Shown here: positions 12,076 through 62,895 of the stretch, in pieces
Position numbering within the stretch: position 1 is the stretch's first letter
How the letters are laid out: every line of letters begins with the position of its first letter
DNA from: an uncultured Acetobacteroides sp.
GTDB lineage: Bacteria; Bacteroidota; Bacteroidia; Bacteroidales; ZOR0009
DNA length: 64,000 nt
Assembly: GCF_963678165.1 (NCBI RefSeq)
Contig: NZ_OY782755.1
Location: forward strand, 2,666,001-2,730,000
Direction of reading: 5' to 3'
Notes under the pieces: model-generated
The model's database searches: none
What the model was told of the DNA's origin: nothing
What the model saw: the letters and a program-made list of their open reading frames with translations, nothing else
Translations under genes and position numbers: made by a program

Positions 12076-12141
12076 GCTTTTTTTCTGGCCCTCCCCCTAA
12101 AAGCCGACGAACATCAAGGATGAAATTGGACTTGCACCCGA

Positions 12142-12729
12142 CGCAATCGCATCTCGGCACCTCGCAATCGAGCTTACGCATGACGCAATGACATCTCGTG
12201 GCTTCGCAATTGGGTTTACCCCTGACGCAATGACATGTGGCGCACTCGCAATCGGGTTTGACCATGACGCAATGGCATCTCGGTGCTCCGCAATTGAGTT
12301 TGGCCATGACGCAATGGCATTTCGGGCATCCGCAATCGGGTTTAGCCATGACGCAATGACATCTCAGTGCTCCGCAATCGGGTTTGCCCCTAACGCAACG
12401 GCATGTGGCGCACTCGCAATTGAGCTTAACCGTGACGCAATGGCATCTCGGTGCTCCGCAATTGGGTTTACCCCTATCGCAACCGCATGTGGCGCACTCG
12501 CAATTGAGCTTGGCGGCTCCGTAACTGGCTTTGCCTGCTTCGCAACCGGGTTTGGCGCTGACGCAATGGCATGTGGCGGCCTCGCAACCGCATCTGACGC
12601 GAACGCAATTGGCCTTGACCGTAACGCAATCACATCTCGGTGCTTCGCAATTGGGTTTGCCCCTATCGCAACCGCATCTGACGCAAGCGCAATCGACCTT
12701 GACCATAACGCAACCGCATGTATCACCTC
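12142..12729. repeat. 21-bp tandem array, 28 units, no length slippage
   Basis: The pentamer CGCAA (once CGTAA) recurs exactly every 21 bases from 12142 to 12709, 28 occurrences in perfect register, with alternate units more alike so that a 42-bp higher-order period is also visible (for example GACGCAATGGCATCTCGG followed by a TCCGCAATTGAGTTTGGC type). Because 21 is a multiple of three, several frames stay open on both strands (for example minus 12035-12706, Cys-rich; plus 12188-12811, Ala-rich heptads), but none has a recognisable domain and the minus frame runs through a terminator. I treat it as a non-coding array; a coding repeat protein cannot be excluded. Confidence 0.9.
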
Positions 12730-28524: not shown

Positions 28525-28596
28525 TAGTCCATAGGGGAATCGAACCCCTGTTACAAGAATGAAAATCTTGCGTCCTAACCCCTAGACGAATGGACC
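28525..28596 (-). tRNA. tRNA-Glu (anticodon TTC)
   Basis: Read on the minus strand: acceptor GGTCCAT / ATGGACT (G1:U72), D arm TCGTCTAGGGGTTAGGAC, anticodon stem CAAGA/TCTTG around loop TTTTCAT with anticodon TTC, T arm CAGGGGTTCGATTCCCCT. Discriminator A, no encoded CCA. Close to the canonical bacterial tRNA-Glu. Confidence 0.95.
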
Positions 28597-29090
28597 ATCT
28601 TTTGGTACAATCCTTATTTCCGATTGCGAGTGCAAATATAGGTCAATTTTCCGAACCTACAAGGCTTGCAATATTTTTTGGGGCACGAGAGGACGCCTTT
28701 AAGTACCTATCGGATAACTCATCACCCCAACAAAACCTGAGGATGAACCCTTTGCGCAAGCAAATACCTATAGGTTAAAAAAGTCAAACCAGCACGGTTT
28801 GGCACGGGAAAATGGCGTAACCGAGCGGCTCTTCAACCAACAGGCGACGCCTCCTCGGGGCTTTTCCGCACCTCTTTCCCTCTTTTAGCCGACCAGCACC
28901 ATCCCCAAATGCCATTTGGCTGAGATGTTGATACTTTTTGGCAGATATTTTTTGGTGACTTCAACTACTTTGTTAATTTTATGGCCGATTCGATGTGCTA
29001 CCAACCTGCACTCTAGCGCTCTTTGGATGTTTGGTGTATTAAATGCGGCAACAGCAGCAGCCCCTCTACTAGGCAATAGCCGTTGTTGTC
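28597..29090. other. Gene-free region left of the 42-bp array
   Basis: About 490 bases without a supportable gene. Short frames (for example minus 28885-29076) show no domain. The last 40 bases (29049-29090) contain decayed pieces of the array unit, such as GGCAATAG and CGTTGTTGTC. Confidence 0.5.
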
Positions 29091-29468
29091 GCTCAATAGT
29101 AGATCCTCTAAGGAAAATCTACCATTGTTGCCGCTCAATAGTAGATCCTCTAAGGGAAATCTACCATTGTTGTCGCTCAATAGGAGATTCTCTAAAGGAA
29201 ATCTACCATTGTTGTTGCTCAATAGGAGATCCTCTAAGGTAAATCTACCATTGTTGTCGCTCAATAGGAGATCCTCTAAGGTAAATCTACCGTTGTTGCC
29301 GCTCAATAGTAGATCCTCTAAGGGAAATCTACCATTGTTGTCGCACAGTAGTAGATTCTCTAAAGAAAATCTATCGTTGTTGTCGCTCAATAGTAGATCC
29401 TCTAAGGGAAATCTACCATTGTTGTCGCTCAATAGCAGATTCTCCAAGGTAAATCTACCGTTGTTGTT
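29091..29468. repeat. 42-bp hairpin repeat array upstream of a DUF6261 gene (nine units)
   Basis: Nine direct repeats start at 29091, 29133, 29175, 29217, 29259, 29301, 29343, 29385 and 29427, exactly 42 bases apart; a decayed piece follows at 29469. Each unit contains an inverted repeat, CAATAGTAGAT and ATCTACCATTG (one mismatch), around the loop CCTCTAAGGGAA, then a TTGTCGCT linker. Units differ at a few fixed positions. Simple 108-137-codon frames read through it on both strands only because 42 is divisible by three. The array ends 113 bases before the DUF6261 start codon. Confidence 0.93.
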
Positions 29469-29581
29469 GCAACATGGGGCCGAGAGGCTACTGTAGGCAC
29501 TGCAAACACTCCAACCTCGCACTAGGGCATCGGCGGTGGCATCATCATCATAACTTATATCTAACTTAAATTTTTACAGCC

Positions 29582-30334
29582 ATGAATGAACTAAGTCTGT
29601 ACCGTTTTTCGGTAGCTTCAACCAGCAACGTATGCCTAATGATTCTCGAAGAGGCCGGCAAGTGCACCATCGCCGAGGCCACCACCCACCCCACCTACAT
29701 CGCCCTAAAGAGCTGCTACAGGGCGTACCAGGATAGCATCGACCGCACGAAGAAGAGCGAGAGCAGCCCTCCGCTGCTGGCCGCCGAGCGGCGCCGGGAT
29801 GACGCCCTGACGGGGGGCCGATCGATTACTAGCGGCCTGATGTGCTCGCCCGATGCCGGGGTTCGGGCCAAGGCGCAGCGGGTATTCGTCCAGTTCGACA
29901 AGTTTGGGGCGGGCGTGGAGAAGCTCAAGAACGAGGAGGAGACCACCAAGCTGCTGAGCATCCTCGATGGGCTCGACCAGCCCGAGATCAAGACACTGGT
30001 GGTAGAACTGGCCATCGGCCCCTACGTGGAGGAGCTGCGCGCGGCCAACGCGGAGTACCTGCGCCTATGGGATTCCCGCGAGGACGACGTGGAGGCATTC
30101 CGCAACAGCACCTCGGCCTCCAACCTTACGCGCAGCGTACAGGAGGCGATAAACGGCTACTACGACTACGTGGTGGCGATGTCGAAGTACAGCGAGAAGA
30201 AGGCGGAGTGGGCCCTGCTGGCCAGCGCCATCCACAGCCGCTACCTCACCCTGAAGCAGAAGCAGCAGCAGGAGAAAAAGGACAAGAAGGACGACAAGCC
30301 TACCCCCAACACGCCCCCTACCGATAAGAAGTAG
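29582..30334 (+). CDS. DUF6261 family protein, copy A
   Basis: A 250-residue, mainly helical cytoplasmic-looking protein with no signal peptide. The DUF6261 layout is visible: N-terminal LYRFSVASTSN, the ERRRDDALTGGRSI segment near residue 73 (family-typical basic RRD), then SPDAGVRAKAQRVFVQFDKFGAG.VEKLKNEEETTKLLSILDGL and a long helix EELRAANAEYLRLWDSRED. The end is a low-complexity charged tail (KQKQQQEKKDKKDDKP). Paralogous to 49343-50107. Function unknown. It is preceded by the 42-bp hairpin array and closed by a GC-rich terminator, so array and gene form a self-contained unit. High G/C third positions. Confidence 0.82.
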   Translation: MNELSLYRFSVASTSNVCLMILEEAGKCTIAEATTHPTYIALKSCYRAYQDSIDRTKKSESSPPLLAAERRRDDALTGGRSITSGLMCSPDAGVRAKAQRVFVQFDKFGAGVEKLKNEEETTKLLSILDGLDQPEIKTLVVELAIGPYVEELRAANAEYLRLWDSREDDVEAFRNSTSASNLTRSVQEAINGYYDYVVAMSKYSEKKAEWALLASAIHSRYLTLKQKQQQEKKDKKDDKPTPNTPPTDKK

Positions 30335-39002: not shown

Positions 39003-39475
39003 ACCAGGGATAGCATCTCCAACAGCACAGAAAACTCTTACCAGAGCACGGATAACTCCTTTCCCTGCATAGGAAACTCTTTACATGGCATAGAAAGTTC
39101 CTCCCTTGGCACAGAAGGCTCCTCCCTTGGCACAGATAACTCCTCCGATGGCACGGCAAACTCTTTCTATGGCACAGGAAACTCTTTTCTTGGCACGAAA
39201 AAACTCCTCCGACGGCACGGAAGGCTCCTCCGATGGCACGAATGACTCCTCCAATGGCACAGATAACTCCTCTTATGGCACGAAAAGATCCTCCCTTGGC
39301 ACCGAAAGTTCCTTCGACGGCACGAGAAACTCTTCCCGCTGCATCAGCAACAGCTTTCAGAGCTCGGAAATGTGCAGCTATCGGAGAAAAGAAGCAGGTG
39401 CTTGGGTAGACAAGGATATGGCTCTACCAAATTCTGGGGATAAATCCCTTCTTTCGACTCTCCATTCAACAGTTT
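39003..39475. repeat. 21-bp tandem array with conserved flank, copy 1 (inverted partner at 62.46-62.90 kb)
   Basis: A GGCAC-type anchor (GGCAC, AGCAC or TGCAT) recurs every 21 bases from about 39003 to 39340, about 17 units of the form GGCACAGATAACTCCTCCGA plus one base, with a single 22-base exception (39192 to 39214). The extra base breaks any reading frame through the array, arguing against coding. From 39341 to about 39460 follows a non-repetitive flank. Both array and flank reappear as the reverse complement at 62460-62895, with about 95 percent identity by eye in the flank. The rest of 38820-39699 contains no supportable gene. Confidence 0.88.
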
Positions 39476-39699
39476 TGGAGTTGAATTCTTACGGAACTCC
39501 GTTCACCTGCATTGTATGCGGGGTAAATTGTATTCAATCCTTTCGGACTACGGCTCAGCGACCAGCATTCGACACCTGTCAGGGACGAGCACAGAACAAG
39601 TTGCCTCTATTACGGAAAAACTCGACAAGAACTTCAACTGAAATTGCTCCGAAAGAAGGGTGAGAGACTAGGAATTTCGCGGCAATTCAACGACAATAA

Positions 39700-49342: not shown

Positions 49343-50107
49343 TTATAGTACGTCCTTTTTACCGGCACCATCCTCGCCGTGCTTCTTCTTGGCCTTCGCG
49401 GCAAGGGTTTGGCGCGCGCGCACCTGCTGCCTCAGCGTGTCTATCTCGCGGTTGAGGTGGGCCACCAGCCCGTCGTACTCGGGGCGAGGGTCGACTAGGT
49501 TGAGCGCGTTGAGCATCTCGAAGAGGGCGGCGCACTGCCTGCAGGCCACCTTTGCGAGCGTGTAGGCCGATACCGGCTCGGCCTCCTTCACCTTTACCTC
49601 GCTGAGCAGCCGGCTGTCCTCCTCGTACTCGGCCTGCGCCGCCATTACCACCTCCCACTGCGCGGTGGCGCTAAGCGCCTTCAGGGCGGCAACGTACCGC
49701 TCGTTGGTGGTGAAGAGGCTGTTCAGCCCGTAGAGCGCCGAGCTCTCCTTGTCGAGCTTCAGGCGCTGCACGCTTCCGGCATCCTTCAGCGCCCGGTAAA
49801 CGAGGTTGGCCGCCTCGTTGACGGCCGGGTTGGTGCTGTGGACAAAGGCCTCGGCAAGGCTCTTGAAGCAGAGGTACTCGCTATCGCGCTTGGAGTCCAT
49901 CGCCCTCTTATTCTTGATTTCGACGATGTAGGCAGCCCGCGCCAGCACCCGCTCCAGCACGGCGATGGTTGCTTCGAGCCGCTCCACCAGCTCCGCTAGC
50001 TTAGGGGTAAGGTTGGCGCTCGACCGAAAGAGGGCAGCGACCTGCCGGGAGAAACTGAACGCCTCGCCAATCTGTAGTGCAGCAAAATGGATGGATTTCG
50101 TTTTCAT
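49343..50107 (-). CDS. DUF6261 family protein, copy B
   Basis: A 254-residue helical protein without signal peptide. It fits DUF6261 well: HFAALQIGEAFSFSRQVAALF at the start, MDSKRDSEYLCFKSLAEAFVHSTNPAVNEAANLVYRALKDAG (landmark DSKRDSEYLCFKSL), LKLDKESSALYGLNSLF, then QWEVVMAAQAEYEEDSRLLSEVKVKE. The end is a basic low-complexity tail (AKAKKKHGEDGAGKKDVL), as in copy A at 29582-30334. Identity between the copies is low by eye. Function unknown. A 41-bp repeat array begins 85 bases upstream of its start codon; DUF2752 and CCC-motif genes follow closely. Confidence 0.87.
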   Translation of the reverse strand: MKTKSIHFAALQIGEAFSFSRQVAALFRSSANLTPKLAELVERLEATIAVLERVLARAAYIVEIKNKRAMDSKRDSEYLCFKSLAEAFVHSTNPAVNEAANLVYRALKDAGSVQRLKLDKESSALYGLNSLFTTNERYVAALKALSATAQWEVVMAAQAEYEEDSRLLSEVKVKEAEPVSAYTLAKVACRQCAALFEMLNALNLVDPRPEYDGLVAHLNREIDTLRQQVRARQTLAAKAKKKHGEDGAGKKDVL

Positions 50108-50191
50108 GCTGACATCGGGTTCTCGAATAATTAATCGTTAAATAAACTCAAAAGCACTAATAAAAACAAGGAAAAGCTAAAATAGATGTTC

Positions 50192-50519
50192 AACCTCCGC
50201 CCGAGGATGATGGCTGCCCAAGAGAAGCACCAAAACTCAGCTTGAGGATGAAGACCTCCTTGTCGATAGGGAAAAACTCAGTTTGAGGATGGAGGGGTCT
50301 CTAGCAAAGCATCGAAACTCAGCCTGAGGATGGAGGTATGGCTGGAAAAACGGGGAAACTCAACCTGAGGATGGAGGCTTTGGGCAAAAACCACCAAAAC
50401 TCAGCCTGAGGATCGAGGCCTACGGATGGGCACATAAAAACTCAAGCTGAGGATTGAGGCCTCTGGAGGAAACCGCAAAAACTCAGCTTGAGGATGGATA
50501 ATCCATTATAAAAAACAGC
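50192..50519. repeat. 41-bp interspersed repeat array upstream of a DUF6261 gene (eight units)
   Basis: Units begin at 50192 (decayed), 50233, 50274, 50315, 50356, 50397, 50438 and 50479, always 41 bases apart. Each begins AAACTCAGCCTGAGGATG followed in most by GAGG; the following about 19 bases differ from unit to unit. The constant part holds a small palindrome CTCAG-C-CTGAG, with G-T or mismatch variants in some units. The layout resembles CRISPR (constant plus unique) but repeats and spacers are too short and there are no cas genes. It lies upstream of, and in fixed orientation to, the DUF6261 gene. Remaining bases 50520-50579 hold no feature. Confidence 0.93.
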
Positions 50520-62401: not shown

Positions 62402-62459
62402 CGTTGTAGTAACGAAATTGGATTTAAATCGAAATTTCGGAAGAAAGAAGGGCTGTATC

Positions 62460-62895
62460 CCCAGAATTTGGTAGAGCCATATCCTTGTCTAGCCAAGCAC
62501 CAGCTTCTTTTCTCCGATAGCTGCACATTCCCGAGCTCTGAAAGCTGTTGCTGATGCGGCAGAAAGAGTTTTTCGTGCCATCGAAGGAACTTTCGGTGCC
62601 AAGGGAGGAGCCTTTCGTGCCAAGAGAGGAGCTTCTCGTGCCAAGAGAGGAGTTATCTGTGCCATCAGAGGAGCCTCCCGTGCCAAGAAAAGAGTTTCCA
62701 ATGCCATAGAAAGAGTTTGCCGTGCCATCGGAGGAGTTATCTGTACCAAGGGAGGAGTTTTCCGTGCCAATAGAGGAACTATCCGTGCCGTCGGAGGAGT
62801 CTTCTATGCCATGGAAAGAGTTTTCTATGCAGGAAAAGGAGTTACCCGTGCTCTGGTAAGAATTTCCTATGCTGTCGGAGATGCTATCTGTGGCA
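62460..62895. repeat. 21-bp tandem array with conserved flank, copy 2 (inverted)
   Basis: A GTGCC-type anchor recurs at 62575, 62596, 62617 and onward to 62890, every 21 bases without exception (16 units). The units are the reverse complement of those at 39.0-39.3 kb. The left flank 62460-62574 is the reverse complement of 39341-39460, with about 95 percent identity by eye, including AATGTGCAGCTATCGGAG. Unit order inside the two arrays differs, suggesting internal shuffling. The remaining 62896-63081 has no feature. Confidence 0.88.

Follow-up and report, generated by a model that had tools for sequence, protein, structure and literature searches.

Two DUF6261 genes and their upstream repeat arrays

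The window analyzed here is a stretch of 64,000 nucleotides, positions 2666001-2730000 of the host contig, and it contains two genes of the DUF6261 family, each preceded by a tandem repeat array. Gene A (29582-30334, plus strand) encodes a protein of 250 amino acids with a lysine-rich C-terminus that matches the PF19775 profile at 72.3 bits (E = 5.4e-20). Gene B (49343-50107, minus strand) encodes a protein of 254 amino acids that matches the same profile at 60.2 bits (E = 2.9e-16); the gathering cut-off is 27 bits. Array A, as delimited by TRF, spans 29083-29467 with a period of 42 bp, 9.2 copies and 89% matches, and ends 114 bases before the ATG of gene A. A walk from unit to unit extends it to 29064-29483 (plus strand), with ten 42-bp units of which the outer two are degenerate. 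The original prediction had placed nine 42-bp units directly before a DUF6261 gene at this locus; TRF and the PF19775 profile confirm the array, the gene and their positions, and the period stands. A tRNA gene is located at 28525-28596 on the minus strand, approximately 470 bp 5' of array A.

Array B (50174-50501, minus strand) lies sense-upstream of gene B and consists of eight 41-bp units, as had been proposed and as both TRF and the unit walk find; the core around CTCAGGCTGAG is conserved and the other half of the unit is variable. The inverted repeats that had been expected in both arrays are present in both consensus units, one in that of array A with the arms GTAGAT/ATCTAC and one in that of array B with the arms CTCAG/CTGAG. 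Neither array, the two in which this was checked, shows the identical repeats and unique spacers of a CRISPR: the units of array A are alike along their entire length (89% matches), and those of array B combine a conserved core with a degenerate half. The units of A and B are indeed unlike each other, with a local alignment score of 6.0 against a null mean of about 6.2. The hexamer ATCCTC, which had been offered as a link between the two, is shared at chance level, because hexamer sharing is frequent among unit pairs: at least one sense hexamer is common to 219 of 561 pairs of host-genome array units and to 2654 of 6903 pairs overall. The ATCCTC argument for kinship of A and B was rejected on these counts.

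The layout was also thought to be unique in the window. That part did not hold, as there are three more arrays with periods of 21/42/63/84 bp; what did hold is that no DUF6261 gene adjoins any of the three. These arrays, none with an assigned strand, are of the dispersed type described below. The first (12140-12719) shows periods of 21/42/63/84/126/168 bp and has a related array at positions 2176-2569 of locus L061. The second (39025-39337, period 21/42/84) belongs to a family of four members in the genome including itself, none adjoining DUF6261, and the third (62562-62851) is its inverted relative with 77% identity. By eye, the regions 39025-39480 and 62430-62872 hold inverted arrays of the 21-bp type and share more than 100 bp outside the array, around gagctctgaaagctgttgctgatg; the pair represents an inverted duplicated element without DUF6261.

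Arrays upstream of DUF6261 genes in the host and other genomes

The host chromosome, a single contig of 4298710 bp, carries 38 DUF6261 genes, all 38 of them above the PF19775 cut-off, and every locus was examined with 6 kb on either side (less at the contig start). In 30/38 loci the sense-upstream 502 bp contain an array that TRF calls at a length of 80 bp or more, with units of 40-43 bp or twice that size; downstream, TRF reports no such array within 1.5 kb of any of the 38 genes. By autocorrelation, a 40-43-bp-period array was found within 700 bp sense-upstream in 34/38 loci and downstream in 0/38, at a threshold of 0.55 that misses weak arrays visible by eye (for example at L101). As a background we used ORFs of at least 150 amino acids from 20 other 20-kb host stretches, hand-placed at round coordinates and not randomly drawn, and these had an array upstream in 17/225 cases and downstream in 21/225. 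From 34/38 versus 17/225 it follows that arrays are common in host DNA and that DUF6261 genes are strongly enriched for them upstream.

The four host loci under the threshold are L014, L016, L032 and L034. L014 scored negative within 700 bp, its array being situated 1.6-1.8 kb upstream, and there seems to be an insertion between this gene and its array. In a sister species, locus L079 has a unit related to that of L014 directly upstream of the gene. Another host copy, L021 (G000:C1:673292-673729), has one in-frame TAG and has kept its upstream array; a sister array of it is present as well.

In other genomes an upstream array was present at 83 of 94 deduplicated DUF6261 loci (85/96 usable loci before two duplicate records were removed, with 5/97 downstream), a set that consists mostly of best matches and hence is no random sample. 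The deduplicated counts are 32/33 within the genus and 51/61 outside it, where 31/35 genomes have at least one array-bearing locus. The original prediction had asked whether 40-44-bp arrays are enriched in the sense-upstream position of DUF6261 genes, and they are: an array is present at 34/38 loci of the host and 83/94 elsewhere versus 17/225 in the host background. Under the array threshold were 11 of the 96 non-host loci (L088, L097, L099, L101, L121, L128, L130, L136, L171, L177 and L179). L080, L160 and L174 were dropped for having less than 400 bp upstream (L160 is array-positive), as were L086, with an N-gap upstream, and L117, an unverified record that is positive at 0.58. The duplicates L120 and L167 were removed from the counts of 94 loci and 118 arrays and kept among the 121 positives used for periods; these 121 also include L117 and L160, and without the four there are 117 with a mean period of 41.56 bp.

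With the host counted, DUF6261 is carried by 6/41 genomes of relatives, 45/393 of the order, 7/395 of the class and 12/395 of the phylum (11 above the cut-off). The phylum search, in class- and phylum-level genomes, yielded nine loci, eight of them with an HMM hit, and 5/8 were array-positive; in another class of the phylum an array was found at 3/3 loci, one with its gene broken by an assembly gap. For A-type subfamily queries the search of genome contigs confirmed nothing, and another search gave eight loci. At L086 (G031) we noticed by eye a second DUF6261-like gene fragment upstream, cut by the assembly gap.

A tblastn search of a plasmid collection with one DUF6261 query gave no match, and one two-sequence query of IMG/VR gave no confirmed relative. 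The phage collection contained one DUF6261 record, the unverified, phage-labelled 6.3-kb fragment L117 (MT837725.1), in which DUF6261 appears by eye beside restriction-modification-like and HU-like genes. The upstream score of 0.58 in this record is reached at lag 41 and comes from two degenerate copies.

Helical phasing and dyads of the arrays

With lags of 36-48 allowed, the best lag in the 121 positives was 42 in 65 cases, 41 in 49, 40 in four and 43 in three. The mean period is 41.55 bp, or 4 x 10.39 bp, and thus approximately four turns of B-DNA. The 118 upstream arrays have a mean of 5.8 units and a median end 126 bp before the ATG. In the 400 kb of other host DNA all 26 arrays peaked at lag 21, 22, 41, 42, 43, 62 or 63 (15-70 allowed), as did 10/15 arrays in other sampled genomes; TRF additionally reported four longer repeats in the host background stretches, with periods of 99, 126, 327 and 378 that lie outside this lag range. 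The promoter motif TAnnTTTG occurs before the array in 17 and after it in 11 of 118 loci.

Dyad arms of at least 5 bp are present in 98 of the 118 consensus units, and the stem comprises 6.5 bp per unit compared with 2.25 in shuffled units. Where a unit has two dyads, the second is exactly half a unit off in 14/20 cases. The reflection symmetry of the whole unit is reached by no more than 5 of 100 shuffles in 57/118 units. Antipodal arms of at least 4 bp occur in 27/67 units, whereas controls that kept the main stem and shuffled the remaining positions give an expectation of 11.4 and never more than 17. Conservation within 69 arrays peaks 2-7 bp off the main dyad, a peak partly favored by the choice of dyad, with a lower peak 13-19 bp off, around the antipode, that was not picked in this way; the better conserved half is the one around the main dyad in 46/69 arrays. 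The array looks like a row with one site per two helical turns.

Sister arrays dispersed in the chromosome

Array A has two relatives elsewhere in the host chromosome, at 3562025-3562317 and 109789-110020, which are 88 and 90% identical to it and lie in gene gaps; the three have the array alone in common and their flanks differ. We searched for such sister arrays with B's own array and with dimers of the unit consensus from 33 linked families, one of them A. At least one dispersed array was found for 23/34 families, 41 arrays in all as hand-counted from listings, with several of the 23 families, B's among them, resting on one weak match. A reversed control query gave 0 matches versus 84, and none of the 41 arrays lies within 5 kb of any of the 38 DUF6261 genes. 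In the converse comparison, 10/33 dispersed arrays scored above the largest null score against linked arrays of the host and 5/33 against those of other genera also, and many have no match to any of the linked arrays (33 compared).

The gaps holding dispersed arrays are convergent, divergent and tandem. The adjoining proteins, of which 43/58 were scanned, belong to ordinary families, none with more than two proteins among the best 25 of 104 matches; the 15 left out comprise ten beside window arrays, one ORF inside an array and four small ORFs. The quarter of the chromosome at 1.60-2.69 Mb contains only 2 of the 38 DUF6261 genes, near a GC-skew change at about 2.4 Mb. This unevenness is weak, being equaled in 26/500 random placements, and dispersed arrays are not depleted there (10/41).

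Array density rises roughly with the number of DUF6261 copies, in small samples. The 38-copy host has 26 arrays in 400 sampled kb; there are 3 in 80 kb at 33 copies, 2 in 80 kb at 18, 3 in 80 kb at nine or more copies (20 candidates, nine scored), 1 in 80 kb at seven and 0 in 80 kb at one copy. Twenty genomes that lack DUF6261, with some very short contigs in the sample, have 1 in 244 kb.

Evolution of the units and properties of the protein

In 18 ortholog pairs from two species of the genus, the identity of aligned arrays is 0.765, and that of the flanks is 0.747 and 0.753; 3/18 pairs have no alignable array. A first impression that the arrays outpace their flanks in change was not borne out by this better comparison of identities. 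Judged from these alignments, the arrays are not specially conserved in their letters, and it is the period and the dyads that persist. Units are held in common, in the same direction, by 20/28 pairs of loci with protein identity above 60%, and at 45-60% protein identity by 2/48 pairs in the same direction and three reversed. Units of different loci are mostly unrelated. DUF6261 is not unusually fast, because its median identity at paired loci is 77% and that of neighbor proteins 81% (17 proteins).

Among 60 DUF6261 members, DUF6261 is the sole family with more than two members matched in the best 25 of 45 Pfam families. No DNA-binding domain was clearly recognized within the same 25, the E2F/DP winged helix being matched weakly in 2/60 (best E = 0.014), and nuclease, transposase and polymerase families were matched by at most one or two of the 60, all weakly, among the matches listed. 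Comparison with solved structures gave no convincing relative; the best was BibA (E = 0.002 over 64 residues). The mean net charge is -1.5 and that of the last 30 residues +2; the overall charge is slightly negative and does not favor DNA binding, whereas the C-terminal tail is on average basic. At L095, L098 and L100 (G147), RPGIL is the C-terminal end of all three DUF6261 proteins matched.

PADLOC defence profiles matched seven families in one member each of the 60 (best E = 5.8e-5, ZorA) and protein A in none, and PHROGs gave isolated weak matches, again one member each. A defence or phage origin was rejected, given these isolated and weak matches and the single IMG/VR and plasmid queries without a confirmed relative. 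We also looked for a recurring neighbor gene in flanks of mostly 1.5 kb (6 kb in the host genome); no family occurs in more than 5/137 loci, and a conserved partner gene was rejected on that count.

A putative DNA-binding module and its alternatives

The idea that the array and the DUF6261 protein form one functional system is supported, through a link that is statistical and comparative. The gene-array pairing suggests a protein-on-DNA system that is undescribed. Pairing, phasing, dyads and sister arrays, like the orientation of the arrays and the rough copy-number trend, are direct observations, and from the first four we infer that DUF6261 is the binder. A DUF6261 gene and the array directly upstream would constitute one module. 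In the array, sites in double-stranded DNA would line up along a single face of the helix, with dyads every 20.8 bp or so (two turns) and units of about 41.6 bp (four turns). Most likely, the DUF6261 protein would bind cooperatively to the sites in its own array and would also bind the sister arrays of that unit family at other places in the chromosome. The resulting nucleoprotein cluster would probably regulate the gene of its own module and might hold loci together that lie far apart. We put the probability of a phased array of DNA sites bound by the DUF6261 protein, on its own and sister arrays, at about 50%. A broader version, in which one bacterial chromosome holds dozens of orthogonal protein-satellite pairs and each paralog clusters its own and sister arrays, organizing the chromosome, is more speculative and in our view doubtful.

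The arrays could instead be transcribed, each unit folding into a hairpin in the RNA, with DUF6261 binding or processing these hairpins. For units with two dyads one can draw a fold whose inner and outer stems are separated by an internal loop, 4 nt is the most frequent loop length (21/108), and the sense-upstream location of the arrays also fits. However, if the stems were RNA, from whichever strand, the ratio of G-U to A-C would be expected to shift clearly, and this ratio is 250:219 (1.14) in stems versus 1225:785, or 1.26 by rate, in unpaired columns; an RNA product is therefore disfavored. Double changes that preserve pairing number 69 compared with 50.8 in shuffles (sd 5.7), a weak excess, and 50/108 dyads have loops of 0-2 nt, although the inner pairs could open in RNA. 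The dispersed arrays occupy convergent, divergent and tandem gaps alike, Rfam has no match at the window arrays (the two Rfam hits that the window does have are both tRNAs), and the hairpin leaves the multiples of approximately 10.4 bp unaccounted for. We consider this reading improbable, and of the examples given in the original prediction, the protein-binding array is favored and the RNA-producing array disfavored, in view of the missing stem G-U excess and the mixed gene contexts. An unlikely alternative of another kind is that the array is a cis-control region for a different host factor and DUF6261 merely the regulated gene. The position agrees with this, the median array end being 126 bp before the ATG and the host arrays being upstream in 34/38 loci and downstream in 0/38. 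A single factor, however, would not explain mostly unrelated units across loci, and sister arrays in varied gene contexts, convergent gaps included, speak against it, as does an array density that roughly increases with DUF6261 copy number.

DUF6261 might also drive the growth or spread of arrays that are useless to the host, as in a selfish satellite. Array A and its sister arrays share the array and not the flanks, DUF6261 was amplified to 18-38 copies within one genus, and the distribution is patchy (45/393 genomes of the order), which counts in favor of this reading. Against this, the weak matches to nucleases, transposases and polymerases are confined to at most one or two of the 60 members among the matches listed, no conserved partner gene is present in the flanks examined, and phasing and dyads suggest a constraint from DNA binding; we give this explanation little credence. 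That the arrays encode repeated peptides is hardly credible. Some 42-bp arrays are open throughout, as in the frames at 29013-29522 and 29083-29496, but periods of 40, 41 and 43 break the frame in 56/121 positives (4 + 49 + 3), and with such non-triplet periods a peptide-coding role was disfavored.

On the preferred reading of DUF6261 as the protein that binds the arrays, a family without assigned function gains a specific and testable partner, the adjoining DNA array. If binding is true, up to 38 protein-site pairs in one chromosome would provide a natural set for the study of DNA recognition and chromosome clustering; if the pairs also prove orthogonal, this would be a chromosome-organizing system without a described counterpart.

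Comparison with known systems

Each repeat of sopC, the centromere of the F plasmid, has an inverted repeat. In passages of PMC9178275, sopC is described as twelve tandem 43-bp repeats adjoining the gene for its binding protein SopB (ParB). This is the nearest system in architecture: DUF6261 loci likewise have a tandem array with a palindromic unit, here with a period of 40-43 bp and dyads in 98/118 units. They differ in that no ParB family is among the Pfam matches listed, neither an ATPase nor any other gene family recurs beside DUF6261 in the flanks examined, the array is upstream of the gene whereas sopC is downstream, and one chromosome carries as many as 38 loci, whose units are for the most part unrelated, plus sister arrays. 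Nearest in phasing are plasmid iterons, direct repeats in helical phase with a length of about 21-22 bp, which precede the gene for the Rep initiator that binds them. Phased direct repeats upstream of a gene for a (here putative) binding protein are common to both, but DUF6261 is chromosomal (on a 4.3 Mb contig) and present in tens of copies, no Rep family is among the Pfam matches listed, and the one plasmid tblastn query had no match. DUF6261 shares the architecture but not the protein family nor, in the flanks examined, the partner gene, and we file it under neither sopC/ParB nor iteron/Rep.

In REP/BIME palindromes with RAYT transposases, a gene has palindromic repeats on both sides, and more of these repeats are scattered through the genome. 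DUF6261 loci resemble them in having palindromic repeats beside the gene and scattered over the genome, and differ in that the transposase match of DUF6261 is one weak TnpV in 1/60 members and that the dispersed units are phased arrays. In ParR/parC and TubR/tubC the array lies upstream of the gene of its binding adaptor. Both are treated as components of partition systems in passages of PMC9178275. A repeat array upstream of a (here putative) adaptor gene is the shared trait, whereas DUF6261 flanks have no recurring partner gene and neither adaptor family is among the Pfam matches listed.

Within the part of the PMC literature covered, a scope outside which preprints and most subscription papers lie, the term DUF6261 occurs in one paper, a streptococcal daptomycin study, and the papers on such arrays gave nothing on the DUF6261 system. 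Protein-bound arrays are already known; what appears to be new is the combination of this protein family, one array per gene, a phased period and sister arrays.
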